Shown: piece after piece, positions 6,252 to 23,915 of the stretch
Position numbering within the stretch: the stretch's first letter is position 1
Layout: the number at the start of each line of letters is the position of its first letter
Assembly (NCBI GenBank): GCA_031292655.1
Contig: JARLGO010000006.1
Location: 1 to 48,027, forward strand
Reading direction: 5' to 3'
Origin: Geothrix sp.
GTDB taxonomy: Bacteria; Acidobacteriota; Holophagae; Holophagales; Holophagaceae
Length of the DNA stretch: 48,027 bases
Notes under the pieces: model-generated
What the model was told of the DNA's origin: nothing
The model's input: only the letters and a program-made list of their open reading frames with translations
The model's database searches: none
Program-made: the position numbers and the translations under genes

Positions 6252-6289
6252 CGAAAGGGCCCCGAACGGGGTAATGCCGTTCACTTAAG
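6252..6289 (+). repeat. Left 38-bp inverted repeat (IS4-type end)
   Basis: It begins CGAAAGGGCCCC and ends TTCACTTAAG. It matches the right copy at 36 of 38 positions in inverted orientation. It contains the palindromic core CCCCGAACGGGG. The outer flanks of the two copies do not match. Confidence 0.8.
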
Positions 6290-6304
6290 AGGCCAAGTTA
6301 AGAA

Positions 6305-6328
6305 AGCGTGGGTGTTAACACCCACGCT
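6305..6328. repeat. Perfect 24-bp palindrome inside the left island end
   Basis: Twelve-base arms (AGCGTGGGTGTT and its complement) meet with no loop, centred on GTTAAC. It may be a dyad operator or a resolved terminus of an old element; as RNA it would need a small loop to fold. It lies 16 bases inside the left terminal repeat. Confidence 0.7.
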
Positions 6329-6395
6329 CTGGAGTTTGGACCTATTGATACCCGGGGAGCATTGACCTCCAAGGACTTCCAGCGGCCCTTCACTG

Positions 6396-6436
6396 AAAAA
6401 CCCAGGAACGTGTCCCTGTACGCGTCCTGGGTTTTT
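6396..6436. terminator. Bidirectional intrinsic terminator
   Basis: AAAAACCCAGGA (6396-6407) pairs with TCCTGGGTTTTT (6425-6436) around a 17-base loop. The A-run on one side and T-run on the other make it a terminator in both directions. It could stop transcription from the left border and from the ubiquitin-like operon. Confidence 0.75.
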
Positions 6437-6745
6437 CGCGTCCCCACTCCGGTTCAGGTCCCAACCAGCACCTACGACGTCCCCAGGATGGTCGTCGAGC
6501 CGGGAGGTGGAGAGCCCCGATGGCGCTTCAACCCATACGCGCCGAAACTCCCCTGGCCCCGAACTGGGGCGATGGGGAGGTCACAGGTTGTGAGCGGTTG
6601 GGATCAGGCGGCCTGGTTGGTCTCCCGATGGTTAAGGACCCACTTCCGCCTGCGAGGCTTCGGGAGGCGGCCGCGTAGCAATTTCTCAGACTTTTGTGAT
6701 CGGCATATCCCCACCGGGTCGGAGCGACTGTTCACCTAGTACAGG
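6437..6745. other. Gap at the left end of the island, no gene supported
   Basis: About 310 bases lie between the terminator and the stop of the DUF6527 gene. A plus-strand frame (6308-6739) is open through it, but its product has no recognisable domain, low complexity and no ribosome-binding site. I see only weak inverted repeats and no gene. Confidence 0.5.
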
Positions 6746-7285
6746 TCAGGTATTCCTTGCGAATGAGCCCTGAGCCTCCCCCCCGCCCTCTGTAACCCGG
6801 CCTTCGCGAACTAACCTCCTACACACGACGAGGACATCCCAGGGAATTTCGCCTAGCTCGTCTGCTATTTCCTCGTACGAACGGAAACAATTGGTGGGTA
6901 ATGCCTGAATCACTGCATTGAGGAGATATCCGAATTCATCCACGTGAGGAGGATATTCCATGAAGTTGTCGTAGCGACCTAGAAGGAGGATTCTGTTTCG
7001 CCAAACGATATAGTGGCTCCGGCATCCACTTCCCATCCAGATGGATGGGAACACAGAAAACCCTGTGGCAGGGCTCCCAAAAAGCCTCCAGGCCGAACCA
7101 GCCCGATGGTCCAGGTTGATTGGGAAAATTTCGCCACACCCGCATGGGCACATTAGGAGCAACCACCTAGGAGGTCCGCGTTGGATCAATACGGCATCCC
7201 CGGGTTGCTCTAGCAGGGGCGTGGCCTCCATCCGAGTCTCAACCGTCCCCCGGAACCTGAGTTCAAGACTACCTCTCCGCTTCAC
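6746..7285 (-). CDS. DUF6527 family protein of the ubiquitin-like operon
   Basis: This 179-residue protein shows the DUF6527 pattern. A CPCGCGE cluster lies near residues 46-52, followed by a WRLFGSPATGFSVFPSIW strand and then GCRSHYIVWRNRI. The clustered cysteines and the C-x-x-H further on suggest a zinc site. DUF6527 genes recur beside bacterial ubiquitin-like, E1, E2 and JAB genes; the biochemical role is not something I can assert. It is last in the operon, 25 bases after the kinase gene. Start is GTG at 7285; ATG at 7228 is an alternative. The N-terminal half of the frame has no other recognised domain. The family call is good, the function unknown. Confidence 0.75.
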   Translation of the reverse strand: MKRRGSLELRFRGTVETRMEATPLLEQPGDAVLIQRGPPRWLLLMCPCGCGEIFPINLDHRAGSAWRLFGSPATGFSVFPSIWMGSGCRSHYIVWRNRILLLGRYDNFMEYPPHVDEFGYLLNAVIQALPTNCFRSYEEIADELGEIPWDVLVVCRRLVREGRVTEGGGEAQGSFARNT

Positions 7286-7310
7286 TACGCACTCCGAGTT
7301 TTAGAAAAAA

Positions 7311-8864
7311 TTAGAGTCTGTCCAGAATCCTCTCGGCGATGAGGTATGCAAGCACGCGCTTAGAGGCTAGGGGTTCTTCTAGAGTGGAGTCCATCCGAGA
7401 CTTCATTAGCAGCGCGGCGGCGAGGGCTCGCGCGTACTGATCATTTGAGGTCTGCATCTGTGCTGCATACAATCTGACCTGACGCACGCAGGCATGAAAC
7501 CAGCACGATGGATTTTTGGGGTCAGGAGGAATTGGTGCTCTGGCGATTGGAAGGTGGTCATACAAGTTCATTGTTTGTTCGAGGATCTGTTCGGCGGTGG
7601 GCTCAGCGCCCGTGAACCCTTCTACTAGAAGGCTAGTCTCCAAGCACGCTGCGTCCCCTACTAAAGGGGCAGGTCTGCTGGAGTAAAAATCGATAATAAT
7701 CGCTTCATTGCCGCGAACCCGAATATTCGCTCCATGCAGGTCACCGTGAATTTGCCCGACCAGTAAGCGCTCCGCCTTGTAGGCCGTTAACTTGGCCCAA
7801 AGCTCCGCTGGGGATTTTTTTGCGCCTAGTGTCTGGGCTTGTTGAAACCGAGCCTTAGGGTATTCAGCAGGATTGAACCGGAAATGGTCCATCAGAACTG
7901 CGGTTTGCATTCTCGATGAGCGGTACCAGCCATTAAGGGTCCTATCAAATAGACAGGCGATGGCTGGTGTGGATCTACCTGCAGAAGCACACTCTAAAAA
8001 CTCCTCTGATTCCTCTACAAAATCTCCAACAAGCACCCCTTTTCGTGCGCCGAGGCAGCACCGATCACGAATAAGATGGGGCCCAAGGTGGAAGGGTACA
8101 AATGGGTCAACAGCATCTTCGTAGTTACGATATTCTCTAACAATTTTTGTGCGCTTATCCATCTTAACTAAATATGGAAGAGGCCACTGCCCAATAGGTC
8201 TCCCATCTAAGGTAGCGTACGCGCTGAATACCCTAGCCGAGGTACGCCCTCCGGATAGGGGTCGAAGAGTTAACTCAGAGCAATCGTGGAACGCTCTCTT
8301 GAGGAGAAGGTTCTCCTCTTCATTAAAGTTAGAATGCTCAACCCCGGGATTTGTCAGGAGGATGTGTATTCTAAGGCTACGATTGGGAGGCTGTGAGTTA
8401 AAATTGAAACAAAGAAAATCAAAATTCTTCTCAATTGGATACACAGCATCTATTAGGAAGACTGTTGGCGAAATCGCACGGCCGTTTATGTCACTCTTGG
8501 CTCCAAGGACATCAGCTGATTCCTCTTCAGGGATAAGGATTGGAACTTTTAACCGCTTGAGCAAGTTCAGGATCATTTCCCGGTTCAGATTAGTAGTGAT
8601 TATTACCAGTATTGAGCCGTTATTCAAAATAGACGGAATAACCTTTTCCAAGGCCGATATATAACTAGATAACTTGGAACTGCCTGGTTCGCATATGACT
8701 CCAGCAACACCTTGTAGTTCCAACAAGACATCTGAGTCTTCTGTGAATGTCTTAACAAATAGCCCACGGCTTGCAAGCACCTCTGAGATCCTTTCAGGAA
8801 TCGGAGGCCTAAACCAAGCAACCCCCTTGCTAGTTTCCCTGGGTCGCAACTCAGTTATGGGCAT
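7311..8864 (-). CDS. Kinase-fold (APH/protein-kinase-like) protein in the ubiquitin-like operon
   Basis: This is a 517-residue protein. Residues about 1-200 form an alpha/beta region of unknown type, with LVIITTN and VFLIDA strands reminiscent of a receiver-like or Rossmann-like fold. From about 200 a kinase lobe is visible: GGRTSA (205-210) as a glycine-rich turn, LVKMD with K234 as the likely ATP-contacting lysine, and E244 in REYRNYE. The catalytic loop is HGDLHGAN (373-380) and the metal site IDF (391-393). All key residues are kept, so it should be active. It resembles the kinase-like ternary-complex-associated (TCAD9-type) proteins of bacterial conflict systems; that label is from memory. 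It starts 3 bases after the E1 gene (TGATAAATG), so translation is probably coupled. Substrate unknown. Confidence 0.75.
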   Translation of the reverse strand: MPITELRPRETSKGVAWFRPPIPERISEVLASRGLFVKTFTEDSDVLLELQGVAGVICEPGSSKLSSYISALEKVIPSILNNGSILVIITTNLNREMILNLLKRLKVPILIPEEESADVLGAKSDINGRAISPTVFLIDAVYPIEKNFDFLCFNFNSQPPNRSLRIHILLTNPGVEHSNFNEEENLLLKRAFHDCSELTLRPLSGGRTSARVFSAYATLDGRPIGQWPLPYLVKMDKRTKIVREYRNYEDAVDPFVPFHLGPHLIRDRCCLGARKGVLVGDFVEESEEFLECASAGRSTPAIACLFDRTLNGWYRSSRMQTAVLMDHFRFNPAEYPKARFQQAQTLGAKKSPAELWAKLTAYKAERLLVGQIHGDLHGANIRVRGNEAIIIDFYSSRPAPLVGDAACLETSLLVEGFTGAEPTAEQILEQTMNLYDHLPIARAPIPPDPKNPSCWFHACVRQVRLYAAQMQTSNDQYARALAAALLMKSRMDSTLEEPLASKRVLAYLIAERILDRL

Positions 8865-8867
8865 TTA

Positions 8868-10214
8868 TCAGTCCTGTCTCGCCATTAATCGCCACTGGTC
8901 TCCACGACCCATCGCCCCACTTCGAGAGCATATAAAGCAGGCTGGGTCGGGTTTAGCAGTAACTGGTCGGGCACTCGAGTTCATCATATTCTGAAGGACG
9001 TAGCGGGCCTCTACAGGAAATCCGGCAACCACACCCAAGAACATAGTCACTGCTATCGACGAAACCGACCCGTTTAGTGAGATGACCGCAGGCGCTGGGA
9101 CCCGAGCGCCGCGAAAGTACGGATCAGCCTTCCGCTCAAACTGGGTCATCATGTCTTGGCGAACCTCATCGTAGTTTAGAAGCCCACTGCAGGTGAAACA
9201 TGCTAAACCGGGGGATAGCAACTGGACTCGTCCGTAAATATGGGCGACCCGTCCTTTTTTCGCAGAAATTACTGTTCCCATATCTATGCAAGGAATGAAA
9301 TATTGATACACTATTTGTTGAATTACTGCGCGACTTCCATGTGAATCCGTACAAGAGAAAATAAAATCAGTTTCTAAAAGGTGTCTCGCGATTTTTGCTT
9401 TGGTTACATCTCCTAAAATGGCCGCTACTTTTGAGAACTTATTTATTTTTCGAATATAGGCTTTTGCAATCGAAACTTTTGATTTTCCTACATCTTTATT
9501 TGAAGCATTGGGGATACGATTTAAATTCGAAATCTCAAGAGAGTCAGGGTCGATTAAAATAAAATTATGTACCCCCAAATGGACAAGTTGCTGAGCAACC
9601 AGCGAACCCGTCCCTCCAAGGCCAACTATTCCAATGCATAAATCCTGAATGGCGCGTTGTCCAAGTTCGCCAAATGCTCTGACCTGCCGGTCATAGATGT
9701 TCTCCTCGAAACCGTCTGTTGGCCCGACCTCCGCACATGGATCAAACAGTATCTCGCGCCTGTGACCCAACGAAATCACCCGAGCCTCAGTCTTAGTTCC
9801 AAGCTGACGGGCCCTCAGCCCACCGGTGCTGATCACCAGCGCTGCATGATACTGCCCTGGGATTCTCTTCTCCAGGAAGGTTCTCAAGTGAACTTCACCA
9901 CCGTCGTCGACGATCGAAAATAGCGGAGGCTTGGGGGCAACATGAGAATGAACGAAGATCACACTTTGTGAGCTAATTTTTGCCTTTTTAACTACGTTGG
10001 CAACGAAACTTGGTCGAAGGGTCACTCCACAGGGTCCCTTTTCTTGGTAATCGCCCTGCTGAGGGATTTCAATGTTCTGGACAATAAGCCGAACAAGCCC
10101 AGATTTCTTTGAGATGGAGGAGGCAAGAAGGACGGCACACCGCTCCTCATCCGGATTCAGTATCTCGGACTTGACCTTCCCTAAATCGTCTTCACTGATG
10201 GCGATCTCAATCAT
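8868..10214 (-). CDS. JAB peptidase - ThiF/E1-like fusion protein
   Basis: This is a 448-residue fusion. The N-terminal JAB/JAMM metalloprotease domain (about 1-150) has E23/E24, H89-S-H91, S100 and D103, the zinc and catalytic set. The C-terminal E1 domain (about 170-448) has the ATP-binding GLGGTGS (198-204), LIDPDSLEISNLNR (220-233) and two CxxC pairs (339/342 and 426/429) for structural zinc. C288 and C309 are candidates for a thioester cysteine. The protein should adenylate the ubiquitin-like protein encoded upstream and trim or remove it through the JAB domain. The start is ATG 10214, overlapping the E2 stop as ATGA. The frame is open to 10475, but that part overlaps the E2 gene and is unlike any domain. 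This section is markedly AT-rich for the window. Confidence 0.9.
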   Translation of the reverse strand: MIEIAISEDDLGKVKSEILNPDEERCAVLLASSISKKSGLVRLIVQNIEIPQQGDYQEKGPCGVTLRPSFVANVVKKAKISSQSVIFVHSHVAPKPPLFSIVDDGGEVHLRTFLEKRIPGQYHAALVISTGGLRARQLGTKTEARVISLGHRREILFDPCAEVGPTDGFEENIYDRQVRAFGELGQRAIQDLCIGIVGLGGTGSLVAQQLVHLGVHNFILIDPDSLEISNLNRIPNASNKDVGKSKVSIAKAYIRKINKFSKVAAILGDVTKAKIARHLLETDFIFSCTDSHGSRAVIQQIVYQYFIPCIDMGTVISAKKGRVAHIYGRVQLLSPGLACFTCSGLLNYDEVRQDMMTQFERKADPYFRGARVPAPAVISLNGSVSSIAVTMFLGVVAGFPVEARYVLQNMMNSSARPVTAKPDPACFICSRSGAMGRGDQWRLMARQD

Positions 10215-10591
10215 CTGGGTGGATCTAGACGACGAATGATGACGTTGATATATCTTAAAAGAGAGTCCTGATTTGGGTTCCAACCTTGCAGGTGCCATGA
10301 AAACCAAGTTCCCCTCTGGCCAAAATCGGGGATTGGATTGGAATCGTTCGACGCATGAGGAGTCTCCTCGTTCGCAAGGCGCACTCCACCAGGCTCTAGC
10401 CAAAAGCAATCTGGCTGAGCCGCCGGGTACCCCGGAGGCGCCACAAACAAAATCGTTGAGGTCTTCCTGTTCCAACCTGGTGGAAGGACGAAATCAGGGA
10501 TCTCAATTAGATGAGATCCACTCGGTGCCGGGGTGATCTTCGCGCTTGAATATTTCTCCTTCAATTCCAGAAATTGTTGCTCGATTAGCAT
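10211..10591 (-). CDS. E2-like protein (prokaryotic E2 family E type)
   Basis: This 126-residue protein has the E2/UBC-like pattern VLPPGW, PPGYPAAQPDCFWLEPG and a C-terminal W-x2-W-H-x3-W helix region, as in prokaryotic E2 family E proteins. The only cysteine is C62, inside the strand after the GYP motif. That is earlier than the catalytic position of canonical E2 enzymes, and no cysteine follows. Transfer would have to use C62, use a hydroxyl residue, or be structural only. It overlaps the modifier gene by 7 bases (ATGCTAA) and the E1 gene by 4 (ATGA). Identity as an E2-like protein is supported by sequence and by the neighbours; activity is open. Confidence 0.8.
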   Translation of the reverse strand: MLIEQQFLELKEKYSSAKITPAPSGSHLIEIPDFVLPPGWNRKTSTILFVAPPGYPAAQPDCFWLEPGGVRLANEETPHASNDSNPIPDFGQRGTWFSWHLQGWNPNQDSLLRYINVIIRRLDPPR

Positions 10592-10833
10592 TGCTGGGTC
10601 CCAAAAGTAGCTGGTGGGACAGCGTAGAAATGCTTCTCTCCGCCGCTCAAGACAATGCCTTCTCCATCGGAGATCGCCTGGTCGGCACCGCCACCGTGCG
10701 TCTCCAGAAACAGTTGGTAAGCGGGCGGGACCCCCGCGATCGACTTGATCGTTGCCCCGGTGACAGATTCAGTTGGTGAGGAGTACTTCTTCCCATCCAC
10801 GAAGAAGTGGAACTCTTTCTGGTGTTCCCCCAT
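10585..10833 (-). CDS. Ubiquitin-like modifier (Multi_ubiq-type domain)
   Basis: This 82-residue single-domain protein has the pattern FFVDGKKYSSPTESVTGATIK, AGVPPAYQLFLE, ISDGEGI and HFYAVPPATFG. That is the Multi_ubiq beta-grasp family, often found as tandem domains but here single. The conserved glycine at residue 78 is followed by TQQC, so a four-residue tail with a terminal cysteine would need trimming by the JAB domain before glycine could be activated; alternatively the cysteine itself matters. RBS GGAGG lies 5 bases upstream of the ATG. It is the first gene of the operon and overlaps the E2 gene by 7 bases. It would be joined to unknown targets. Confidence 0.88.
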   Translation of the reverse strand: MGEHQKEFHFFVDGKKYSSPTESVTGATIKSIAGVPPAYQLFLETHGGGADQAISDGEGIVLSGGEKHFYAVPPATFGTQQC

Positions 10834-10848
10834 AAGTCCTCCAATTAT

Positions 10849-10863
10849 AGTGTAATTGACACT
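10849..10863. promoter_or_regulatory. AGTGT-N5-ACACT dyad upstream of the modifier gene
   Basis: Five-base inverted arms lie 16-30 bases before the start codon of the operon's first gene, next to a TATAAT sequence on the minus strand. The TATAAT is only a few bases from the ribosome-binding site, so it may not be the real -10 box. It is a candidate operator or promoter only. Confidence 0.3.
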
Positions 10864-11281
10864 AGCACGCTTCAGGTTCTGTCTTCATTCCTGTTCGTCC
10901 GAGCGGCTCCGCCCCGCCTCTCATTTCTCTCGTAGTTCAAAGGTAAGGAATCTGACCTCTAATCCGCCCCAGTTATTCTAACGCAGGTTCATTGTTGAAG
11001 ATCAGACCTCTGAGATGCCCCTAGGCCTGTGCTTCCGGTCTTGAGAGCGGGTTGGTCGAATCAGGATACGCCCTTGCGCAATCCGGGTGAATCAGGATCG
11101 AGAAGGTCCGCCCCGAGGGACGGGCCTTCTTCCGCGAGCCCCGGGCTCTGAGCCGCCAATGGAACCGGTGTCTGGTCGTTCATAGACCTGGGTGGTGGGC
11201 CTCACGACCCGCCACTTGTTCACCCCAACCGGATTCCAGTGCCACTTCTCACGGTCGCCACTGGAACCATCAGGAGTTTCT
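10864..11281. other. Gap with hairpin and tRNA-like fragment
   Basis: No gene is supported. A hairpin at about 11100-11128 (GAAGGTCCG with CGGGCCTTC, one G-U pair, 10-base loop, then TT) may be a terminator. Around 10933-10966 there is a tRNA-like string (TAGTTCAAAGG then CCTCTAATCCG), but it does not fold into a cloverleaf. Confidence 0.4.
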
Positions 11282-11383
11282 ATGTCCCAAATTATACCTG
11301 CCCAGGAAGGGCAAATCTTCGCCGAGGAGAGGTCCGGGAAAGAAGAGCCTTGCTCACCGATAGGTTTACAACCTATTGTTTGA
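11282..11383 (+). CDS. Possible 33-residue small protein
   Basis: AGGAG sits 6 bases before ATG 11282, a good ribosome-binding site, and the frame gives 33 residues beginning MSQIIPAQEGQIF. No family is recognised. It may be a leader peptide, the start of a decayed gene or chance. It stands 63 bases before the next gene on the same strand. Confidence 0.25.
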   Translation: MSQIIPAQEGQIFAEERSGKEEPCSPIGLQPIV

Positions 11384-11446
11384 TAGCCACTTCCACCTTC
11401 TCCTGGCCCATGAGACTCTGGGACATCCTGATCCGAAGAGGTGTTG

Positions 11447-12421
11447 ATGCATTTTCCAGAGGCATTCAGTCACCAACTTCCAGGCATGATCAACGTCGAT
11501 AAGGCCGTAAGGTATTTTGATGCCGGGCATCTCACTGACCGAAATGCGTTCGAATGCCCAGATACCCACTGCTCAGCGCCCTTGATCCTGAAGGCACTGC
11601 CAGTCAATACGGCAGGCCAGGGTCCGGTCACTGGGAAATGTGACCCCTACTTTTCCACGAGTGGAGATAAGTCCAGCCACGACCCTGCCTGCGAGTTTCT
11701 GCGTGCAGAGATCATTGGTCCGACCTTCATCCGAACCAGACCGAACTGGAAGGATGATCTCAAGAACATCAACCTTGATGATGTATTCGATTTGATGCGC
11801 CCAACCATCGTACGCCCACAGATAGCAGGATCAGGCTCAAGTTCCTCTTCCAGTGCCGCTCATCGTTCTGTCATCGCCGTACAGAAAGCACAACGGAAGA
11901 ACCTGAGCCACTACTCTGTGCTTGAATCCGTCGTGGATCGGTACTTGGGTTTACCGGCTCGTCTGGCCGCAAAGAAGTGTCTTCGAATTGCAGGACGGCG
12001 CCTGACATACACAGACACCTTCATTGAGATGAAGGACATTGGTCCCAAGGGACTGGGGCCAAACGATATTCGAATCTACACGGGGGAAGCACTGCTTAAA
12101 CCAAACCCCAAGGTCGGTGGTGGATACGGTTTCTACCTTCTGGATGACACATCAATCGCGGGTGTGATTCACCGCGGTGCCTACAAGATTTGGGCAAGTT
12201 TCCTGCAACCGAAACCAGGGAGTGCGCTTGGTCCTGGAATCACTCGAATGGCCAGACGCCTTTCGAATGCCATCGGGACAGTCAACAACGGAAAGGTCAA
12301 GGTCAGGTTGTATATCCTTGGTGGGTACAAAATATCATCCCAGCATATAAATGGTGCCCAACAGGAGTGGCTGAATTTTCAGGTGGCCAATCTTGATCAT
12401 GTCCACTTCGAGATCATCTGA
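11447..12421 (+). CDS. Uncharacterised protein with N-terminal Cys/His cluster
   Basis: This roughly 324-residue protein has no family I can name. The N-terminal part has CPDTHC (about residues 37-42), then CDPYF and HDPAC, a possible zinc-binding module. A serine run (GSGSSSSSSAA, about residue 130) separates it from a longer C-terminal domain rich in beta-type strands (YGFYLLDDTS, VKVRLYILGG). Start ATG 11447 is chosen because GAAGAGG lies 6 bases upstream; GTG 11441 and ATG 11486 are alternatives. The two-part structure with an N-terminal zinc module resembles CoiA-like or restriction-associated proteins, but that is only an impression. It converges with the next gene, overlapping by 8 bases. 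Confidence 0.6.
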   Translation: MHFPEAFSHQLPGMINVDKAVRYFDAGHLTDRNAFECPDTHCSAPLILKALPVNTAGQGPVTGKCDPYFSTSGDKSSHDPACEFLRAEIIGPTFIRTRPNWKDDLKNINLDDVFDLMRPTIVRPQIAGSGSSSSSSAAHRSVIAVQKAQRKNLSHYSVLESVVDRYLGLPARLAAKKCLRIAGRRLTYTDTFIEMKDIGPKGLGPNDIRIYTGEALLKPNPKVGGGYGFYLLDDTSIAGVIHRGAYKIWASFLQPKPGSALGPGITRMARRLSNAIGTVNNGKVKVRLYILGGYKISSQHINGAQQEWLNFQVANLDHVHFEII

Positions 12422-12863
12422 CGGGTTTGTCTCTCCTTGTGGTCATCTGGACCTTGTATGGCGCAAGTAGCCGAAGGATTGCGATCGCGAAGATAGTGGC
12501 AAGCTCATAGGGGATCTGTAACGAGATCCGATCGGTATCCTTCTCGACCACGACGGGATCATCCACTCCAATGAAGATAACCGACAGGTGAACCCCTCCA
12601 CCGCCGCGCAGGGTGGCGACATATTCGGCCGAAGCATGCTGGAGGGCCGCATCCCGATACATAGCGAGGCGTTCCGAACGGTCTTCCGACCAATAAAGCA
12701 AGGAAGGGGGTAGTTCGGCACGCAGTTCATCCACGATCGCGGTACTGGTCAGCCTTGTCCTTCTAAACGATTGGCGTAGCCACCGGGACATCGAGGCTTC
12801 GTCCCGGTTAAGTTCGTGGTTCTCGCACTCGGATTCCAAGTCGGGTGGGATTTCAGATGTCAT
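12414..12863 (-). CDS. Uncharacterised small protein
   Basis: This 149-residue protein starts at ATG 12863, with AAGGGG about 9 bases upstream; the frame also opens at 12920 without a site. It is acidic at the N-terminus (EIPPDLESECENHEL), then basic (WLRQSFRRTRL). Its C-terminal third contains a hydrophobic stretch (ELATIFAIAILRLLAP) that could be a buried helix or membrane segment. No family is recognised. It is convergent with the Cys/His-cluster gene and the two stop regions overlap by 8 bases. Confidence 0.5.
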   Translation of the reverse strand: MTSEIPPDLESECENHELNRDEASMSRWLRQSFRRTRLTSTAIVDELRAELPPSLLYWSEDRSERLAMYRDAALQHASAEYVATLRGGGGVHLSVIFIGVDDPVVVEKDTDRISLQIPYELATIFAIAILRLLAPYKVQMTTRRDKPVR

Positions 12864-13321
12864 GGAATACCCCTTGATGTGGTCCGGATTCTGGCCCCAA
12901 GTCCGGCCGCCTAGCCTCAAATGTCACGGAGCGTCAGTGACGCTCACGGTTGTCTGGACAGGAGACAACACCACTTTGGGCGCTGATCCGGTCATCGGGT
13001 TTTGTTCGGGACCATCTAGATTGGGTGTGTGCATATTCATGGGATCTTCCGGCGCCACCAAAGGGCTACCGAGATCATCAACCCGAAGTATTTTTTCTCT
13101 CGATCTCAGATGTTCCATTTTTTATTCGACCAAAGGGCCTGAAAAAGTCGAATGATTCGATGTTCTATTCGACGCGTAAATACAGTGTGCAAGCGCGTTT
13201 CGATGGATTACATTGGTCGTCCGGAGAGACTTATCACGAGTCGTTTCACGCGAGGGGTAATGGCGCATGCACAAGATGGATCCTCCTCATCTCCTTCCCT
13301 CTCCAGGGGGAGGGACCCTCC
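12864..13321. other. 458-base gap with repeated ATTCGAC motifs
   Basis: A plus-strand frame spans 12950-13489, but only its C-terminal end looks like protein. ATTCGAC occurs at 13134-13140 and 13167-13173, and its complement GTCGAAT at 13147-13153; the last two form an inverted pair 13 bases apart. These may be regulator sites or relics. An AT-rich run (13090-13135) could hold a promoter. Confidence 0.4.
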
Positions 13322-13489
13322 ATGTCGGACCTTGTGAACCAGGACCGGGATGCGCCTGCCCTGGAGGTGATTCGCCTATCCGTGGAAGACCAGGAGGCGT
13401 TCGCCAAGGCTCTGCTGGATCCACCGCCGGTGACACCAGCTCTGGCTAGGGCTTTCCAACGCCGCCGAAAGCGCCTGAGGCCTGGCTGA
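13322..13489 (+). pseudogene. Truncated DUF1778 (TacA-type) antitoxin remnant
   Basis: The 55-residue product contains RLSVEDQEAFAKALLDPPP, the C-terminal toxin-binding signature of DUF1778 antitoxins. The usual N-terminal ribbon-helix-helix DNA-binding part is missing; full proteins are about 90 residues. GGGAGGG precedes the ATG. No GNAT toxin gene follows; the next gene is a metallophosphoesterase. I read it as a decayed antitoxin, although a short antitoxin that protects against a toxin encoded elsewhere is possible. Confidence 0.6.
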
Positions 13490-13542
13490 CGGGGTGAAGC
13501 TGCTCCTGGGCACCCGTCATCAACCTCCCACGAAAGAGATCC

Positions 13543-14484
13543 ATGCGCCTGGTTTGCATCTCCGACACTCACAACACCCACAGGGCCCTGCATCTTCCAG
13601 ATGGGGACGTTCTCATTCACGCGGGAGATGCCACCGGGCAGGGGCTCAGTCTGGAGGTGGAGCGCTTCTTCGCCTGGTTTGCATCCCAACCCCATCAGCA
13701 CAAGATCCTCGTCGCCGGGAACCACGACTGGCTCTTTCAGCGGCATCCCGATATGGCCGCCCAGCTTCTGGCAGCCCACCCTGGCATCACCTACCTTCAG
13801 GACTCCGGGATCGAGATCGAAGGCGTCAAGTTCTGGGGTTCTCCCTGGCAGCCCTGGTTCTGCGACTGGGCCTTCAACCTTCCGCGCGGAGGCGAGGCCC
13901 TCCGCGAGACCTGGAACAAGATCCCGTTGGGTACCGAGGTCCTAATCACCCATGGGCCGCCCTGGGGGGTGCTCGATCAGGTGCATGGCTGCATTCACCT
14001 GGGTTGTGAGGCACTGAAGATTCGTCTTGCCGCCGTCCGTCCTCGTGTCCATGTTTTCGGGCACATCCATGGCTCATACGGAGTGGCTCGGTCCAAGGCC
14101 ACCGCCTATGTGAACGCGTGTAGTTGTGATGAGGACTATCGGCCCACGCACAAACCCGTCGTCCTTGATCTTCGCCCCAAATCCATCAAGGTCCATGGAA
14201 TCGAACCCAACGTGCGGTTGGAACGCCTGGAGCGTCTGCAGGAGGCCCTCATGCACACAGAGAAGGATGTCCGCGAGAAAGTGTTGTACGAATTGCCTCC
14301 ACACCAGATTGATGGGCTCCACGAGATGGCAGAAATCCGAGGGATGAGGACGGAGGCTCTGCTCCAGGATTATGTAGAGCGTGGCCTGCACTTCGACTTG
14401 GCGAAGCACCTTCGAGTCGAGAAGAAGCCGAGCAAGCGACCCATCCCGTTCACCAAACTGGAGGATGGTCGTGCCGAAACCTAA
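13543..14484 (+). CDS. Metallophosphoesterase with C-terminal helical extension
   Basis: This 313-residue protein is a calcineurin-like phosphoesterase of the MPPED/UPF0046 kind. Metal-binding motifs run in order: SDTHN (7-11), GDAT (28-31), AGNHDW (58-63), THGPPWG and GHIHG. All ligands are present, so a two-metal hydrolase acting on phosphodiesters or nucleotides is expected. After about residue 220 there is a helical extension with MRTEALLQDYVERGLHFDLAKHL, which resembles a small regulatory domain and is unusual for the family. The 3' end overlaps the next gene by 20 bases, implying co-translation with two antitoxin-like proteins. It could be the active component of a toxin-antitoxin-like trio. 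Confidence 0.85.
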   Translation: MRLVCISDTHNTHRALHLPDGDVLIHAGDATGQGLSLEVERFFAWFASQPHQHKILVAGNHDWLFQRHPDMAAQLLAAHPGITYLQDSGIEIEGVKFWGSPWQPWFCDWAFNLPRGGEALRETWNKIPLGTEVLITHGPPWGVLDQVHGCIHLGCEALKIRLAAVRPRVHVFGHIHGSYGVARSKATAYVNACSCDEDYRPTHKPVVLDLRPKSIKVHGIEPNVRLERLERLQEALMHTEKDVREKVLYELPPHQIDGLHEMAEIRGMRTEALLQDYVERGLHFDLAKHLRVEKKPSKRPIPFTKLEDGRAET

Positions 14485-15088
14485 GCCCCGGAGGACCCTC
14501 TACCCCAAATTGAAGAAGGCCCTCCAGGAGTTGGACCCATCCTGGTCGGGCGAGATCCCCGAGTTGCCAAAGCCCATAAGTTTGCCGGAAGAGGGCCGGA
14601 AGCGGCTCCGGGCAGTCTTATCCCGGGCCGACGATCCTGATGAGGCATACGGGCGAATGGCTGCTGCCGCCCTGCGTATGTTCTACATGATCTCCATGAA
14701 GTGGGGCCTTTCTGAAGAGGATCAGAAGGCGATTCTGGGGGTGGACGAAGATCTCTCGATTGAGGCCCTGGTAGATAGGGGAGCCACTTCTCTCGACATG
14801 GAGGCCATGGAATGCTTCTCCCACATCCTTGGCATCTACAGAGCACTTAACACGCTCTTCCCCACTGACTCTCAGGCGGATGCTTGGATCAAAAAGCCCA
14901 ATTACGCGCCCTTGTTCATCGGGAGGACAGCCCTTCAGATGATGAGGGAAGGAATCGTCGGGCTCCGTGCGGTGAGGGCATACCTTGAAGCCGAAGCTCC
15001 CAGTTCCCACCCTCACCGGAGAAGTAAGGGGCTCGATATGGGCCCCTGGGATCAGGGCTTGAGTCCGAAGGGAGGGGGGGAGCCGTGA
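14465..15088 (+). CDS. Xre/MbcA/ParS-like antitoxin-type protein, first of two
   Basis: This 207-residue protein has a helical central region (about 50-125) that may be a divergent Xre-type DNA-binding part. It is followed by LNTLFPTDSQADAWI, then GRTALQMMREGIVGLRAVRAYLEAE, the DUF2384 toxin-binding fold of MbcA/ParS antitoxins. These normally neutralise RES-domain toxins, but no RES gene is present. It overlaps the metallophosphoesterase gene by 20 bases and meets the next gene as TGATG. Start ATG 14465 is chosen; GTG 14471 is also possible. The pairing with a phosphoesterase is unusual. Confidence 0.7.
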   Translation: MVVPKPKPRRTLYPKLKKALQELDPSWSGEIPELPKPISLPEEGRKRLRAVLSRADDPDEAYGRMAAAALRMFYMISMKWGLSEEDQKAILGVDEDLSIEALVDRGATSLDMEAMECFSHILGIYRALNTLFPTDSQADAWIKKPNYAPLFIGRTALQMMREGIVGLRAVRAYLEAEAPSSHPHRRSKGLDMGPWDQGLSPKGGGEP

Positions 15089-15618
15089 TGAACGAGGGGC
15101 TGCCCGTGATTCAGATCGAGAGCATCCATCGGGCCCTGCTCTCCATCCCTGATTCATCTACGAGGATGGCGGCAGTTCGGTACCTGGATTTCCTGCGAAC
15201 CGTTCTGGGGGTCCAGAGTGCTCGCATTGTCCAACTGAACCGAATGATCCCGCCCGACATGCAATTGCACGATGCCCATAGGGTGAGTGTCGCCTTCCGG
15301 GCATTCTTGAACCTGGCCAAAGTTCTAGGTCTAACTTGGGCCCAAAAAAGTTCCCTGCTCGATGTCCCGGAACGGACCCTGCGCCGTTGGGCTGTGAAGG
15401 AACCTCGCCTTGACGCAGAGAAGCAAAAACGGATGGGTATCGTCCTGGCTATTTACTACCTGGCAGGAAAGGCATTCCAAGACGATCCCAAGGGATGGCT
15501 ACTGCGGCCGAATTCTCACCCTAAACTGGAAGGACGACCGCCCCTCGCTCGAATGCTTGATGGCCGGTATCGAGATTTGGCCTTGGTTTACGCAATCGCG
15601 AGGTCCTTCGAGCCTTAA
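15088..15618 (+). CDS. Xre/ParS-like protein, second of two
   Basis: This 176-residue protein has a helix-turn-helix-like stretch (LTWAQKSSLLDVPERTLRRWA, about residues 90-110). A DUF2384-like C-terminus follows, with GWLLRPNSH, then PLARMLDGRYRDLALVYAIARSF. It is a clearer Xre-ParS architecture than the gene before it. Its start codon overlaps the preceding stop (TGATG) behind a G-rich ribosome-binding site (GGAGGGGGGG). Having two ParS-like proteins in tandem suggests a heteromeric antitoxin or a repressor plus an antitoxin. A partner toxin other than the phosphoesterase is not visible. Confidence 0.65.
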   Translation: MNEGLPVIQIESIHRALLSIPDSSTRMAAVRYLDFLRTVLGVQSARIVQLNRMIPPDMQLHDAHRVSVAFRAFLNLAKVLGLTWAQKSSLLDVPERTLRRWAVKEPRLDAEKQKRMGIVLAIYYLAGKAFQDDPKGWLLRPNSHPKLEGRPPLARMLDGRYRDLALVYAIARSFEP

Positions 15619-15679
15619 TGGAATATCTACTTGGGATGTGTAAGCTCCTCCAGGGGTTTAGACCACACCCCGAGTCACG

Positions 15680-15693
15680 TTCCCGATCGGGAA
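15680..15693. promoter_or_regulatory. HipB operator 1
   Basis: TTCCCGATCGGGAA is a perfect 14-bp palindrome, 55 bases before the hipB-like start. An identical copy lies 49 bases downstream. Confidence 0.75.
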
Positions 15694-15728
15694 TAAATGC
15701 ATCAAAAGGCCTCACAAACATGAAATTA

Positions 15729-15742
15729 TTCCCGATCGGGAA
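15729..15742. promoter_or_regulatory. HipB operator 2
   Basis: A second identical TTCCCGATCGGGAA ends 5 bases before the start codon, covering where the ribosome-binding site should be. Together with operator 1 it suggests cooperative autorepression by the HipB-like protein. Confidence 0.75.
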
Positions 15743-15747
15743 CAAAA

Positions 15748-16047
15748 ATGAACACACTCCCCGCGCTCTTTCGTCTGTTGAGGTTTCCTCTGTTGAGTCT
15801 GGAGGAGGTCGGGACTACCGTCCGACGACTCCGTAAGGAGCAAGGCCTGCGTCAGGATGAGCTGGCCGGAGTTGCAAATGTCGGTCTGCGCTTCATCGTG
15901 GACTTGGAGGCCGGGAAAGACACAATTCAGATGGGTAAGGCCCTGAAGGTGCTGGAGGCACTTGGGTGTGTGCTTACATTCTCGACGCGCTCGGATCTGT
16001 ACAGGGCACTGATGGGAACGGACCAAGTGCCAGGCTCGGAAGACTGA
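15748..16047 (+). CDS. HipB-like Xre regulator, orphan antitoxin
   Basis: This 99-residue protein has an Xre helix-turn-helix (VRRLRKEQGLRQDELAGVANVGLRFIVDLE, about residues 24-53) and the GKDTIQMGKALKVLEALG continuation typical of HipB/y4mF antitoxins. HipB binds its own promoter and inhibits the kinase toxin HipA. Two perfect palindromic operators sit in front of the gene. No hipA follows: the next 236 bases are non-coding and then a gene on the other strand ends. It may be a leftover antitoxin or a repressor of other island genes. Confidence 0.85.
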   Translation: MNTLPALFRLLRFPLLSLEEVGTTVRRLRKEQGLRQDELAGVANVGLRFIVDLEAGKDTIQMGKALKVLEALGCVLTFSTRSDLYRALMGTDQVPGSED

Positions 16048-16283
16048 AGGGAGAATGGCTGAACCTCGAGCTGTTCCATTCCAACGCAGAGGGCATGGGT
16101 AAATTGGTCGCCTGAAAATACGACTGCCTGTGTGGTCAGCTTGTCGGATTTCTGCCTTCGCTTGGCATAGGATTTCGGTAACTCGAAAGCCACCTCCGCC
16201 TGGAAATCCAGTCAAGGGTCGTAGAGCCCAGGATTGAGAGGAATCGAGCGTGATCAATATTCAATTTTGCTCGACAAGACATA

Positions 16284-17801
16284 TCAAACCTTCCATTTGT
16301 CGTCGACGTGCCCGAGGTTGATCGGGGCCGTTAGGTGGTTGCTTCTCGCCAGCCTCTTCTTCCGGACCTCATGCGTCTGCACGGCTAAGCTGAGGTAGAG
16401 GAGGGCGGACCGTGAAAGCTGCATCAGCTTGATCGCCTTGGCGACAAATTCTTTCTTTGTCTGGATGTTTGAAAGCTTGTCGCCCAGAAAGGACTCAAAC
16501 TGGGGTCTGCCCTCCGACCTGAATGAGAAGTCCACCAGTTTCAGAAAACGATGCTCGGAGCATTGCCGGAGATAATCGATTTCCTGGGCTTCTGGCTCCA
16601 TGGCGTCCCTGAAGCCGGGCCGATTCTCGGACAAATCCTTGCTAAGCCAGTAGAGGCCGCGCAGGGCATTGTTCTCCAGGTCCGTGAACAGTGGATTGAT
16701 TCCCTTTTTCTTCTCACGTTGCGTGTACCAGATCGTCTTAATCGAAACGAATTTGATAGGGATACCAACCTTGATGTACTCGTTCACGAAGTAAGCGACC
16801 TTGTCGAACAGGCTGTAGGCGGCCCGGAAGGCGATGATGATCTTTTGGGTGTGGATGGTATGTGAGGAGTAGTCTAGGGTGTTCACGATCGAGACGTCCT
16901 TGTCCGAGTAGTGGAGCCCTCTATTGTGGATGCCTTCGTAGAGCAGAAACCTCGCCGAAACATATTCCTGCTTCAGCTGGTTAAAAAAGCTGAGGGCCCA
17001 TGGCCCTTCGTGGAGGTCCGTGGTGATAGTAGGCAGGTGGAGAACATCCGCTGCCGCGACCGCAAGACTTCCCAAATCGTTCAACGGGTTCAGAAACAGC
17101 CGCTGATTGAGGCACCACCTCCTGTATTGCCTCTCTCCATGGGTTTTGCCTAGTGAATAGGTGTTCAGGTCGAAGTCCTTGTCCACGAAGTCGCCCAAAT
17201 TAGATCGAATGAATGCCATCGCATCGGCAAAGATATCCGTGGAGCCTGGTTCCAGGTCTATCGGGTGCTCCAACGCCGTCGCCATGTCGCGGTAGGCCCG
17301 ATGAGCGATGAGATTTTTGTGTGAGGGATCAGGGACGAAGCGGCTGTAGTGGAGAAGCCCGTAGCCCCGGTTTGCCATCGCCATACCGAATGGAAGCGCC
17401 TCCAATGCTTTATCCCAGTAGTAAATTGCCTCAACGGGCCTACCAACTAGGCTCAGAGCGTTCCCGAGGTTGGTCGAAGCCTGACAGTACCGGACCTTCC
17501 CTGTCTGGGACCTTGAGCCCTCAAGGAGCTTGTGTGCGACTCTCAAGTTGAATATTTCGGCCTCAATATCTTCGTCTTCCCAGTTCTCCAACGTATTCTT
17601 GCCAGGCTGGCATGCCCTCTTTCCGGAATGGGCGTTGGCGAGAAAGTAGTACAGGGCGCCGTTCCGCTTAGCGTCGCCGTCTTCCTGCAGCTGGTCCTTG
17701 ATCAGGTCGATGCATTCCTGAAGCTTCGACATGTCGCGAGAGAACCAGGCCTCATCGACCTTGTTCGCGAGCTCTTTTACGGAGGGCTTGGATCCTGCCA
17801 T
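16284..17801 (-). CDS. TPR-like protein with LA2681-type HEPN domain
   Basis: This is a 505-residue protein. The N-terminal half (about 1-180) has repeated helix pairs resembling TPRs (ASTNLGNALSLVGRPVEAIYYWDKALEALP). The C-terminal part (about 225-505) matches the LA2681-like HEPN group. The HEPN motif R-x4-H is at R412/H417 (LRQCSEHRF). HEPN domains with this motif are usually ribonucleases in defence and toxin systems. The gene stands alone; no partner nucleotidyltransferase is adjacent. Start is ATG 17801. The RNase role is inference from the motif; the family is reasonably sure. Confidence 0.78.
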   Translation of the reverse strand: MAGSKPSVKELANKVDEAWFSRDMSKLQECIDLIKDQLQEDGDAKRNGALYYFLANAHSGKRACQPGKNTLENWEDEDIEAEIFNLRVAHKLLEGSRSQTGKVRYCQASTNLGNALSLVGRPVEAIYYWDKALEALPFGMAMANRGYGLLHYSRFVPDPSHKNLIAHRAYRDMATALEHPIDLEPGSTDIFADAMAFIRSNLGDFVDKDFDLNTYSLGKTHGERQYRRWCLNQRLFLNPLNDLGSLAVAAADVLHLPTITTDLHEGPWALSFFNQLKQEYVSARFLLYEGIHNRGLHYSDKDVSIVNTLDYSSHTIHTQKIIIAFRAAYSLFDKVAYFVNEYIKVGIPIKFVSIKTIWYTQREKKKGINPLFTDLENNALRGLYWLSKDLSENRPGFRDAMEPEAQEIDYLRQCSEHRFLKLVDFSFRSEGRPQFESFLGDKLSNIQTKKEFVAKAIKLMQLSRSALLYLSLAVQTHEVRKKRLARSNHLTAPINLGHVDDKWKV

Positions 17802-18325
17802 GGGTCGACTCCCGGACTCGGAAATTTCAAGGCATGCAAGGATTATCAGCGGGAAGACGCCGGCGTAAGCATTGCATCATTGTCGGGGCCTCAGGCATGA
17901 GATCGTTTATCTGGCGTCCCGAAGCCGAACCAGGAGTGAGGAGTATGACCTTCTATCTGGGTTTCTAGGCCTGACCAGCTAACTGGACCTAAACCGCCCT
18001 CTTATGGTTTCGCCAGCCTGTCAGATTGGCCATTTTCACCACTTAAATGAGGCCAAATCGGAGTGGAATCGGACAAATTGTGCTCCCTACCCCGAACGTC
18101 ATTTCGTTCACGACACAGCCTGCTAGGGGAGGTGGTGGGACCTGAAGCAAGCCCTACAAGACTTCCATGACCTCTACAACCGCCACTGACTCATCGAGCG
18201 CCACAACCACCGGTCTCCCGCCAAGGCCCGTCAGGATCTCCTTGGCCGCAGGGTTGCCGCGTGAATACACTAGACCCACTGTCCAAGAAATTTCGGGCGG
18301 TTCACATTGGCGATATGGAGACGAC
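17802..18325. other. Non-coding region between HEPN and ATPase genes
   Basis: It holds the divergent start regions of both genes and the first copy of a 74-bp direct repeat (17930-18003). An open frame runs through 18167-18325 in phase with the ATPase gene, but I treat it as non-coding because a better ribosome-binding site is at 18326. Confidence 0.5.
17930..18003. repeat. Direct repeat copy 1; broken 3' end of an Xre gene
   Basis: It matches 20580-20653 at 67 of 74 bases. In copy 2 the segment is the end of the Xre gene and its downstream flank. In copy 1 the same minus-strand frame still reads QLAGQA-stop but has no gene body, so it is a gene-end fragment. The similarity stops just after GCCCTCTT. 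Confidence 0.85.
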
Positions 18326-20407
18326 ATGGAATATTCCATTGAGAAGTTTTGGCGCCCGCGATTTGCTTCAGTCGCGGCTCAAACCCCTCCGAGACAGCTG
18401 CCCGGCTGGAACCCTTCCGCTGAGCACGCAAGTTCCTTCGTTGAAGCCAGCCTTTCGCTTCGCCGCGACTTCAATGACCTCTCCCAGAGTGTGTGGCTAA
18501 TCGCAGCCCCCGGCGCTGTGGGTAAGTCAACCTTGGCGCGCGAGATTTGTGCGGCAACCAATGCTATCTACTTGGATCTCGCCGCAGCGGCTACAGTAGC
18601 TGGCAACTACCTAGTCGGTGGCATGGTGAATGGCCGCCTATGGGACGCGTGGCAACACGGCTCATCGACTCTGCTCATAGATGCTCTAGACGAGGCGCGC
18701 TTGCGCGTAACCCAAACATCGTTCGAAGACTTCCTAGCAGATGTCGCCAACGTAGCAGGAAGTCATAAAGTTCCGCTTGTTCTGCTTGGTCGAGTTGGAA
18801 TAATCGAGGAGGCTTGGGCGATCCTTAACGACAAGTCGGGACTCAATCCGCCGATCTTCGACATCGAACTCTTCGACGCGGACCAGGCTAAAGCGTTCGT
18901 ATTGGTCGCCCTCAATCGCCTCGCCCTTACGAAAGATTCAATTTCAGGAATGAAGATCTATCCGCATTTGGCAGAGGCACTTAGTAATCACTGCTCCGTG
19001 TACGAGGAAGCTGCGCAGTTCCTAGTGGACCACTTGACCACTGCGACAAGCGCTGATGGTCGCCAGTTCGTGGGTTACGCACCCGTGCTGGATGCAGTAG
19101 CGACAGTCATTGCATCGGAATCCAATCCCATCAAGATTGGCGAGGCTATGAAGTCGATCCTTCAGGGTCAGATCCTAGGGCGCGTAACGTCTGAAGTGAT
19201 GATTCGTGAATCCAGCAAGTTGGCAGCTCAATTAGCAGTAAGTCTCCCCGGGGTTAGCACCTACGGGCTCTATGGGTCGGCCGAACAGCTATCGAGACTT
19301 GCGTCGCTAGTTCTTAGGACTGGTACGCCTCAAATGCCTGCTGGTCTTCCCCAGCATGCGGTTGCAACATACGAGGATGCAGTTCAGAGTCTCTTGCCAC
19401 AGCATCCTTTCCTTGACAGCAAGGAACCCAAACCCTCGGGAGCGGTATTCGCAGCCAGTATTCTCGCTGCTGCACTCACGGGGGACGATACGCAGCTCGT
19501 GAGAGCAGCCGAACGGATGGCCGGCAGCGGCCCAAACACACCCAATCCGTTTCTGCTTGAATTCTATCGCGAAGCATCAGGCAAAACAAAGAAGAGCCCT
19601 GCAGAGCATGTGGGCCTCTTGTACGCTTCGCTTGAGGCCACTGCGGGTGTGGGCGATGTGGTGCGGCTATCAGCCGAGGGCGAAGAATCGCTGGAAGTGG
19701 AAATGACTGTTATCCGGCAGGACGGAGTCGAGAAGCGCTACGACTTCGAAACGACTAGTGGCAGCACTCTTCGTTTGGGCCGACGGGTAAGCGGCGTCAA
19801 TGTTGACGCAGAAGCAACCGATGTTGAGCTTGGCGAAGGAGGCCAATTGGAACTGGTCGCACCTGTTGCCATCCACTCTCGCACATTGGCAATCAATTGT
19901 TCCGAGTTAGTAGTCAAACCTGATCACGCCGGGGCAGTGGATCAGACCGTGTATCTTGAAGCCGCAGAGGCCTTGGCTGATCCAGGCCTTCGTCCTCCAA
20001 TTGTCCGCACGGGAGCGAAGCTACAACTTGCCTGGCCCGAATCCAAGGTTTACCCATGGACTCCGTTCTCTTCTGATGCCAGTGAGGACTCCGATCCTCG
20101 CATGGCCGAAGTCCAGCGTGGGCTCCGCCGCCTCTGCATCTCTTTCCGTTCCCACAGCAAGGGCAGGCTTGCACGGTACAAGGGGAAGGTGGAGCACTTC
20201 CGAATGACAAAGGGAGCTATTGGTATTGCACTTCGCGAGCGCCTCTTGGCCGACAAGGTGATTTCCCTAGAAGGGTCCATGTATTATCTCGAACCGGATG
20301 CCCTTGGAAGGGTCGTAGGCGTTGGGTTCCAGGACCTAAAGTTCAAGCACTACCCATCGAAGTCGCGCGTATACCTCCAAGAGGTTCTCAACAGCCTGGA
20401 CGTCTAG
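18326..20407 (+). CDS. NACHT/STAND-like P-loop ATPase
   Basis: This 693-residue protein has Walker A PGAVGKST (62-69) and Walker B LLIDALDEAR (116-125), the DE arrangement of NACHT-type STAND ATPases. After the ATPase and helical arm (to about 330) the protein continues with a helical region. A beta-rich stretch (about 460-560) and a basic C-terminal domain follow (SFRSHSKGRLARYKGKVEHF, about 620-640). No known effector such as a nuclease, TIR or protease is recognised. It is short for the Avs group. Start ATG 18326 has GGAG 6 bases upstream; the longer frame from 18167 adds 53 low-complexity residues. It is likely a sensor or defence protein. Confidence 0.7.
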   Translation: MEYSIEKFWRPRFASVAAQTPPRQLPGWNPSAEHASSFVEASLSLRRDFNDLSQSVWLIAAPGAVGKSTLAREICAATNAIYLDLAAAATVAGNYLVGGMVNGRLWDAWQHGSSTLLIDALDEARLRVTQTSFEDFLADVANVAGSHKVPLVLLGRVGIIEEAWAILNDKSGLNPPIFDIELFDADQAKAFVLVALNRLALTKDSISGMKIYPHLAEALSNHCSVYEEAAQFLVDHLTTATSADGRQFVGYAPVLDAVATVIASESNPIKIGEAMKSILQGQILGRVTSEVMIRESSKLAAQLAVSLPGVSTYGLYGSAEQLSRLASLVLRTGTPQMPAGLPQHAVATYEDAVQSLLPQHPFLDSKEPKPSGAVFAASILAAALTGDDTQLVRAAERMAGSGPNTPNPFLLEFYREASGKTKKSPAEHVGLLYASLEATAGVGDVVRLSAEGEESLEVEMTVIRQDGVEKRYDFETTSGSTLRLGRRVSGVNVDAEATDVELGEGGQLELVAPVAIHSRTLAINCSELVVKPDHAGAVDQTVYLEAAEALADPGLRPPIVRTGAKLQLAWPESKVYPWTPFSSDASEDSDPRMAEVQRGLRRLCISFRSHSKGRLARYKGKVEHFRMTKGAIGIALRERLLADKVISLEGSMYYLEPDALGRVVGVGFQDLKFKHYPSKSRVYLQEVLNSLDV

Positions 20408-20579
20408 GTAATGTTGTCCACCCGAAACCGACAAACCAAAAACAAGTTCTCGACACTTGATACTGGGAGATATAGGGTCCCCTTGGGAGCACACTGGTCA
20501 TTCGGAATTTGGGCAGAGAACCCAAAAGGGTAATCCAACCTGAAGCCAAGATTCACCCCCCCCCAGTATTAAAGCTGAC
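20408..20579. other. Short gap with poly-C tract
   Basis: About 170 bases between the ATPase stop and the second direct repeat, including a run of ten C residues at about 20556-20565. No gene is seen. The C-run is prone to slippage. Confidence 0.4.
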
Positions 20580-20653
20580 CCAGGAGTGAGGAGTATGACC
20601 TTCTGGCTGGGTTTTTAGGCCTGACCAGCTAACTGGGCCTGGACAGCCCTCTT
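20580..20653. repeat. Direct repeat copy 2
   Basis: This partner of 17930-18003 overlaps the last 13 codons of the Xre gene (stop at 20615-20617, minus strand) and the flank beyond it. The two copies bracket the ATPase gene. Confidence 0.85.
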
Positions 20654-21049: not shown

Positions 21050-21202
21050 TTTGAATCTCCTGATAACAGGATCGTCCGGACGTGACGTCCCTCTTCATAC
21101 TAGATTAGAACATCTTAGATAAATGCTAGTTGAACTCCAACTCCCCCTTGTTAAAGGCTTAGGGCAGCAAATTCCTTGCTTCTTGAACCAGAATAGCCTT
21201 TC

Positions 21203-21228
21203 ATGGGTTTCCTACCCATTTCGTTTTT
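21203..21228 (+). terminator. Hairpin with T-run in the HU leader
   Basis: ATGGGT pairs with ACCCAT around TTCCT, followed by TTCGTTTTT. It ends 17 bases before the HU/IHF start codon, so it may be an attenuator or stop read-through from upstream. Confidence 0.45.
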
Positions 21229-21245
21229 ACGCCCAGGAGCCTCCC

Positions 21246-23910: not shown

Positions 23911-23915
23911 ACGAG

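Follow-up and report, generated by a model that had tools for sequence, protein, structure and literature searches.

A Bub-type ubiquitin-like conjugation operon of Geothrix with an embedded, predicted APH-fold kinase

The minus strand of a 48,027-nucleotide stretch of Geothrix sp. DNA (contig JARLGO010000006.1; the whole stretch is hereafter called the window) carries five consecutive open reading frames, at 6746-10833, that encode in transcription order a ubiquitin-like modifier (Ubl), an E2-like protein, a fusion of a JAB domain to an E1, a kinase and a DUF6527 protein. Judging from their sequences, these genes almost certainly specify a Bub pathway of a distinct, kinase-bearing subtype, of which the kinase is, in all likelihood, a functional part. 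The Ubl-E2-JAB-E1-DUF6527 core is already known, as the Bub pathway and, in older terms, as 'type 6e'. A first-pass annotation of the window had proposed a ubiquitin-like conjugation operon to which the kinase belongs, and the recurrence of the gene set, the E1 tree and the co-evolution of kinase and E1 bear this out.

The operon and its conjugation core

All five reading frames lie where the first-pass annotation had placed them, and their products exceed the curated Pfam cut-offs, the JAB part of E1 being without a Pfam match:

10585..10833, minus strand: BubA-type Ubl (Multi_ubiq), 82 residues, a single beta-grasp domain (PF14452, 36.1 bits; cut-off 24.5)
10211..10591, minus strand: BubB-type E2-like protein, 126 residues (Prok-E2_E, PF14462, 40.5 bits)
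8868..10214, minus strand: BubCD-type JAB-E1 fusion, 448 residues from the ATG at 10214 (ThiF, PF00899, 129.1 bits)
7311..8864, minus strand: APH/TCAD9 kinase, 517 residues (TCAD9, PF19974, 52.8 bits; APH, PF01636, 27.8 bits)
6746..7285, minus strand: DUF6527 protein, 179 residues (PF20137, 51.0 bits)

The genes are tightly packed, with the spacing already read from the letters: the Ubl and E2 frames overlap by 7 bases and the E2 and E1 frames by 4 (ATGA at 10214-10211), while 3 bases separate the end of E1 (8868) from the start of the kinase gene (8864); a further 25 bases lie between the kinase and DUF6527 genes. For the JAB-E1 gene, the ATG at 10214 is a more plausible start than the first TTG (10475), which the mechanical list of reading frames gives. 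PADLOC and NCBIfam searches with the Ubl, E2, kinase and DUF6527 proteins named no system.

The Ubl matches multi-ubiquitin and BilA structures in the PDB, including 9d5b and 8u38, and ends in PPATFG followed by a four-residue tail, TQQC, which would have to be removed. The ending PP[AT][TN]FG is found in much of the clade of kinase-bearing operons described below and PKANFG in part of it, with INPG in most other relatives. The E2 matches Citrobacter BubB in the PDB (E-value 4e-4). In an alignment of 25 diverse E2s, D61, S98, H100 and W104 are the only invariant residues and no cysteine is conserved family-wide; C62, located in the PDCFW strand, is invariant solely in kinase-bearing members. 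Bub conjugation reportedly runs, according to Ye and colleagues, through oxyester rather than thioester intermediates, and a cysteine-less E2 family that keeps S98 and H100 fits this chemistry. Residues 25-395 of the E1 match Citrobacter BubCD in the PDB (E-value 1.8e-24); its JAMM residues E24, H89, H91, S100 and D103 (in the numbering of the 448-residue protein) are invariant in ten homologues, and its ThiF domain carries two CxxC pairs.

Co-inheritance of the kinase with the operon

We scanned 84,980 species genomes with an alignment of E1 and kept the best 80 E1 loci, as a result of which the sample is biased towards close E1 relatives; with other loci, including plasmid-borne ones, this gave 101 E1 loci that were annotated with profiles. 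The kinase was present in 52 of them, absent from 37 and undecidable in 12; it is not, in other words, missing from all related operons, an outcome that the first-pass annotation had taken as the mark of a chance neighbour. In a tree of E1 (98 rows), all 50 kinase-bearing rows fell within one 58-row clade (Shimodaira-Hasegawa-like approximate likelihood ratio test, SH-aLRT, 95) and none outside it, and the gain and loss of the kinase took 6 changes, compared with 32.8 for shuffled labels. With a root that the method did not infer, the simplest reading of this pattern would be one gain and several losses. A strict kinase-only E1 clade was rejected (approximately unbiased test, p ~4e-76) because kinase-less members are nested inside.

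The kinase clade spans at least seven phyla (its members come from Pseudomonadota, Acidobacteriota, Gemmatimonadota, Armatimonadota, Verrucomicrobiota, Bacteroidota, Deinococcota and FCPU426), and a search of plasmids with E1 recovered the gene order Ubl-E2-E1-kinase-DUF6527 in Bradyrhizobium, Deinococcus, Rhizobium and Mesorhizobium. With tens of unrelated loci sharing the five genes, their association is far beyond chance. Where the kinase gene follows that of E1 (45 loci), a start codon for it is in every case close to the E1 stop, the nearest being at -56 to +20 nucleotides (median -1). The distances of E1 and kinase correlate with r=0.85 (0.75 for distant pairs), a value higher than that of E1 and E2 (0.79; 0.65 for distant pairs). 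Orthologues of the kinase lay within the operon in 12 of 13 plasmid records, the thirteenth being beside a DUF6527 remnant, and 396 genomes from the phylum yielded two strong hits, both of them within the operon as well. Alternatively, the kinase could be a passenger of a mobile island, functionally unrelated to the Ubl pathway: the operon does reside in a strain-specific island, and 8 of the 58 clade members are devoid of the kinase. This explanation is scarcely credible, however, given a single clade across seven phyla, closely spaced start codons, the strength of the co-evolution with E1 and the failure to find orthologues elsewhere in the plasmid records and the genomes of the phylum.

The kinase does not always occupy the same place. 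In some loci its gene lies behind that of DUF6527, with the core retained, and in one subclade it is directly preceded by a second Ubl gene (Ubl2), the order being Ubl-E2-E1-DUF6527-Ubl2-kinase in L090, L099, L104, L106 and L107. The kinase-less members of this subclade, L094 and L096, are also without Ubl2; Ubl2 and kinase, present or absent together, thus behave as a pair. Two further observations concern the relatives. Loci L059 and L102 have a tandem pair of DUF6527 genes 3' of the kinase, and the Ubl/E2/E1 operons of L046 (from the same genus), L047 and L048, which have no recognisable DUF6527 or kinase, are highly divergent, their three rows in the E1 tree sitting on long branches and being grouped with weak support. 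Among 50,697 phage records there was no match to the kinase, and the E1 matches listed were partial and covered the ThiF part. Scans of genome and viral contig collections with a single protein (kinase or E1) gave no matches, the E1 alignment having succeeded for genomes.

Kinase, DUF6527 and the possible role of phosphorylation

The kinase displays K234, E244, H373-G-D375, N380 and D392; the motifs HGDLHGAN and IDF, together with K234 and E244, are where the first-pass annotation had located them. Eight homologues share these catalytic residues without exception, and across 40 their conservation is 90% or more, so that the protein is very probably a catalytically active phosphotransferase. 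An AlphaFold2 model built from a 40-sequence alignment (predicted local distance difference test, pLDDT, 88.8; predicted template modelling score, pTM, 0.88) assigns the kinase domain (about residues 178-517) an APH/choline-kinase fold, which answers the doubt, voiced at first, that the product might have no kinase fold at all. In structural comparisons with VIA-align, the model matched 3dxq (Z 17.1, root-mean-square deviation (rmsd) 3.7 over 260 residues), with further matches to the aminoglycoside 2''-phosphotransferase 3tdv (Z 15.8) and to LxmK of the lexapeptide dehydratase complex (Z 15.7). LxmK is an APH-like kinase that phosphorylates peptide side chains. The fold being common to small-molecule kinases and a few peptide or protein kinases, it does not decide the substrate. 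The TCAD9 profile is matched by all 40 clade kinases, and the Hanks-type profile Pkinase (PF00069) gave no match in the window kinase and a match in one of the 40 homologues, at E-value 0.03.

The N-terminal part of the kinase (about residues 14-155 of a domain spanning about 1-160) is modelled as an alternating alpha/beta domain; it belongs to no recognised family, its fold not having been searched separately. Note that a Chloroflexota locus (L114) encodes, at 3272-5263 and upstream of a Bub-like operon, a REC-TCAD9-OmpR protein whose TCAD9 part, a pseudokinase by loss of the HGD motif, lies between the receiver and the DNA-binding domain. An N-terminal receiver domain of this kind is unsupported in the window kinase (hhalign probability 0.1%).

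The core of DUF6527 is characterized by the signature C46-x3-C50-x37-C88-x2-H91, and C46, P47, W66, P80, S81 and H91 are invariant columns among 50 homologues. The invariant S81 and H91 make it a probable Ser-His protease, which we take to be the published Bub serine protease. In the AlphaFold model (pLDDT 92), the C-terminus (about residues 114-179) forms a winged helix (match to winged-helix/Zalpha domains: Z 10.4, rmsd 1.5 over 62 residues); the core had no PDB match by sequence profile, and the fold lists were dominated by the winged helix. Judged by length, 43 of 46 kinase-bearing members of the clade and all 7 kinase-less ones have the extension, as does at most one locus outside the clade (L041, possibly an artefact of the motif search). 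The full extension is missing from three loci with the kinase, L052, L097 and L100, and the kinase is therefore likely to be the older of the two.

We propose a kinase-bearing Bub pathway within which the kinase acts, and consider the chances of this reading about even. The operon would be silent until stress, in keeping with the CapW-like or HTH+M78 regulators encoded upstream in relatives, and the Ubl would then tag proteins. The JAB-E1 fusion would process and activate the Ubl and the cysteine-less E2 would handle it, as in Bub, the parts for these steps being evident from the sequence. DUF6527 would serve as a probable second (Ser-His) protease, and the kinase might phosphorylate a protein of the pathway or a tagged target, thereby gating tagging or changing its outcome. 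With confidence somewhat short of even, we favour such a protein, rather than a small molecule, as the substrate, and its phosphorylation over the effector and switch roles discussed below. A bolder form, which we consider unlikely, would be a phospho-ubiquitin-like code: the modifier, the conjugating enzymes or the conjugates would be phosphorylated by a dedicated, co-evolving APH-fold kinase, which would thereby control what the pathway puts out and to which a second Ubl would be dedicated in one subclade, as an independent parallel to PINK1/ubiquitin of eukaryotes.

Several results weigh against the kinase acting on proteins within the pathway. In a conservation contrast, no serine, threonine or tyrosine of Ubl, E2, E1 or DUF6527 was conserved only with the kinase. 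The nearest kinase folds are mostly those of small-molecule kinases (choline, aminoglycoside, methylthioribose). Most of the eight kinase-less clade members keep the rest of the operon, which indicates that the kinase is dispensable for the core reaction; tblastn found no remnant of it in these members. Finally, no Bub operon has been shown to protect against phage (PMC13373217), which corrects the link to antiviral defence made in the first-pass annotation. As the kinase is APH/choline-kinase-like, with a fold that small-molecule kinases share, and not Hanks-type, the phosphorylation of the modifier, the E1 or a target suggested there as a control layer is something we infer.

The small-molecule preference of the fold neighbours suits a different arrangement, in which the kinase would be an effector arm that the Ubl pathway either activates or brings to its site of action; conjugation would then lead to growth arrest or defence through phosphorylation of a small molecule, a nucleotide or some other general component of the cell. 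Indeed, TCAD9 is named after the ternary NTP (nucleoside triphosphate)-dependent conflict systems, in which active APH kinases are seen as effectors and are thought to act on low-molecular-weight substrates (PMC7159879), and the core persists in loci where the kinase gene is missing or has moved behind DUF6527. By contrast, the tight co-evolution with E1 exceeds what a swappable effector would need, and kinase-less clade members show no recognisable alternative effector gene at the kinase position. We consider an effector arm rather unlikely, and less probable than a kinase that acts on a protein of the pathway or on a tagged one.

The near confinement of the winged-helix extension to the kinase clade raises the possibility of a control switch, in which the kinase would phosphorylate a DNA-binding DUF6527 and thereby derepress or shut off the operon, as a kinase-repressor pair, CapK and CapS, does for other Bub operons (PMC13373217). 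Upstream of the window operon, a palindrome overlaps a -10 element:

10844..10864, minus strand: putative promoter/operator, weak; palindrome TAGTGTCAATTACACTA (10848-10864) with an overlapping TATAAT -10 element (10844-10849)

This palindrome adjoins the Ubl ATG on its upstream side, but it scores 5 in the scan against a mean of about 4 for shuffled sequences and is not conserved in relatives, where no conserved operator was found upstream of Ubl. Moreover, winged helix and kinase are not strictly paired, since the three loci named above are without the full extension and kinase-less members keep it; Zalpha-like winged helices may also bind RNA or proteins; and many members already carry regulators of other kinds, the proteins upstream of kinase-bearing operons (n=50) including 14 WYL (CapW-like) and 11 M78 (CapP-like) proteins. 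DNA-damage regulators of the CapW and CapH-CapP kinds control other Bub operons (PMC13373217); no WYL- or M78-type regulator adjoins the window operon. Altogether, we find a switch of this sort quite improbable.

If the kinase does act on the modifier or its targets, bacteria would join phosphorylation to ubiquitin-like tagging, a pairing regarded as eukaryotic. Bub operons are known in hundreds, and the kinase-bearing and kinase-less sister operons offer a natural comparison for the role of the pathway.

Genomic setting and relation to known systems

The operon occupies the left end of an island:

6271..25550, no strand: strain-specific island of about 19.3 kb, the site being empty in congeners

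The G+C content of the island is 47-58%, as compared to about 66% outside. Homology with congeners ends at 6264-6271 and picks up again at about 25550, with 65 bp in between in L155; the site is empty or nearly so in four congeners read in detail, and the flanking genes are just 2.5-3 kb apart in about a dozen. Besides the Bub operon, the island carries Xre/MbcA-ParS-type (antitoxin-like) genes, a metallophosphatase, HEPN_LA2681, an AAA-like protein and the transposases IS1595 and IS4. An 82-nucleotide direct repeat (89%; 17922-18003 and 20572-20653) flanks the 746-residue AAA-like gene (18167-20407), and may represent target sites or the shared regulatory sequences of a defence cassette. Two copies of the palindrome TTCCCGATCGGGAA (15680-15697 and 15729-15746, 49 nucleotides apart), found between an Xre-like antitoxin gene (15085-15618) and the gene at 15712-16257, look like an operator pair. 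Lastly, 57-nucleotide tandem repeats occur at 25634-25918, within a DUF6600/FecR gene (25546-27654).

Among relatives, six loci from Rhizobiales and Sphingomonads (L088, L091, L095, L098, L103 and L108, at about 2250-5800) encode a 1130-1147-residue protein directly upstream of multi-Ubl operons, with M78 peptidase, UvrD helicase and PD-(D/E)XK nuclease domains in the L088 copy. In two unrelated loci (L037:3139-6489 and L074:2643-5972), a protein of about 1110 residues is encoded upstream of a kinase-bearing operon, with HEPN_Swt1 and DUF499 domains in L074. On Bradyrhizobium plasmids, genes of CBASS (cyclic-oligonucleotide-based antiphage signalling systems) neighbour the operon.

Bil (BilABCD) and type II CBASS (Cap2/Cap3) are, like the window operon, Ubl-type E1/E2/JAB systems; both are reported to act against phage, and to our knowledge neither contains such a kinase. 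The window operon is not Bil, which has a separate JAB gene (BilC) and a cysteine E2 (BilB), whereas its own JAB is fused to E1 and its E2 has no family-wide cysteine. Nor is it CBASS, which has a cyclase (CD-NTase), none being present among the five genes.

With the Citrobacter Bub system (BubA/B/CD; Ye et al., Gong et al.; PDB 9ea4, 9eae, 9eav), the window operon shares a Ubl, an E2-like protein of a family with no conserved cysteine, an N-terminal JAB fused to E1 and carriage on mobile DNA, and Bub relatives of the window share with known Bub the CapW/CapHP-type regulators upstream. On a Citrobacter freundii plasmid (L143), the gene after a related E1 is DUF6527, as in the core of the window operon. 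However, the C. freundii operon has no kinase, its single 362-residue multiubiquitin protein comes with no separate E2 gene listed, whereas the window has both Ubl and E2, and its DUF6527, with 113 residues, leaves no room for the winged helix; the two E1s share just 26% identity, and that of the window retains a CxxC absent from the aligned BubCD. Operon type 6e (Iyer, Burroughs, Aravind et al. 2006, PMC1779556) likewise combines a cysteine-less E2/RWD-like protein with a JAB-E1, along with 1-3 Ubl repeats and a small DUF6527-like protein with a cysteine signature, but no kinase is mentioned there.

Regarding the kinase, its TCAD9 profile (PF19974) is common to the clade kinases and to proteins of ternary conflict systems, other TCAD9 proteins occurring in other contexts. 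CapK and CapS (PMC13373217) resemble the window in tying a kinase gene and a winged-helix protein to Bub operons; CapK, however, is a GHKL/STAS kinase encoded upstream of the promoter, while the window kinase is of the APH fold and lies inside the operon, and no pair of GHKL-STAS kinase and STAS-winged helix-turn-helix repressor was recognised upstream in the window. The kinase-bearing subtype is not mentioned in PMC1779556 (type 6e) or in PMC13373217, the latter holding no aminoglycoside, TCAD or phosphotransferase terms; the main Bub description lies outside this comparison, so that a prior description is possible. The first-pass annotation had named no described system with exactly this gene set: the four-gene core is that of type 6e and Bub, but the kinase and the winged helix of DUF6527 set the subtype apart, and on this sequence comparison we provisionally regard the kinase-bearing, winged-helix Bub subtype as a new variant.

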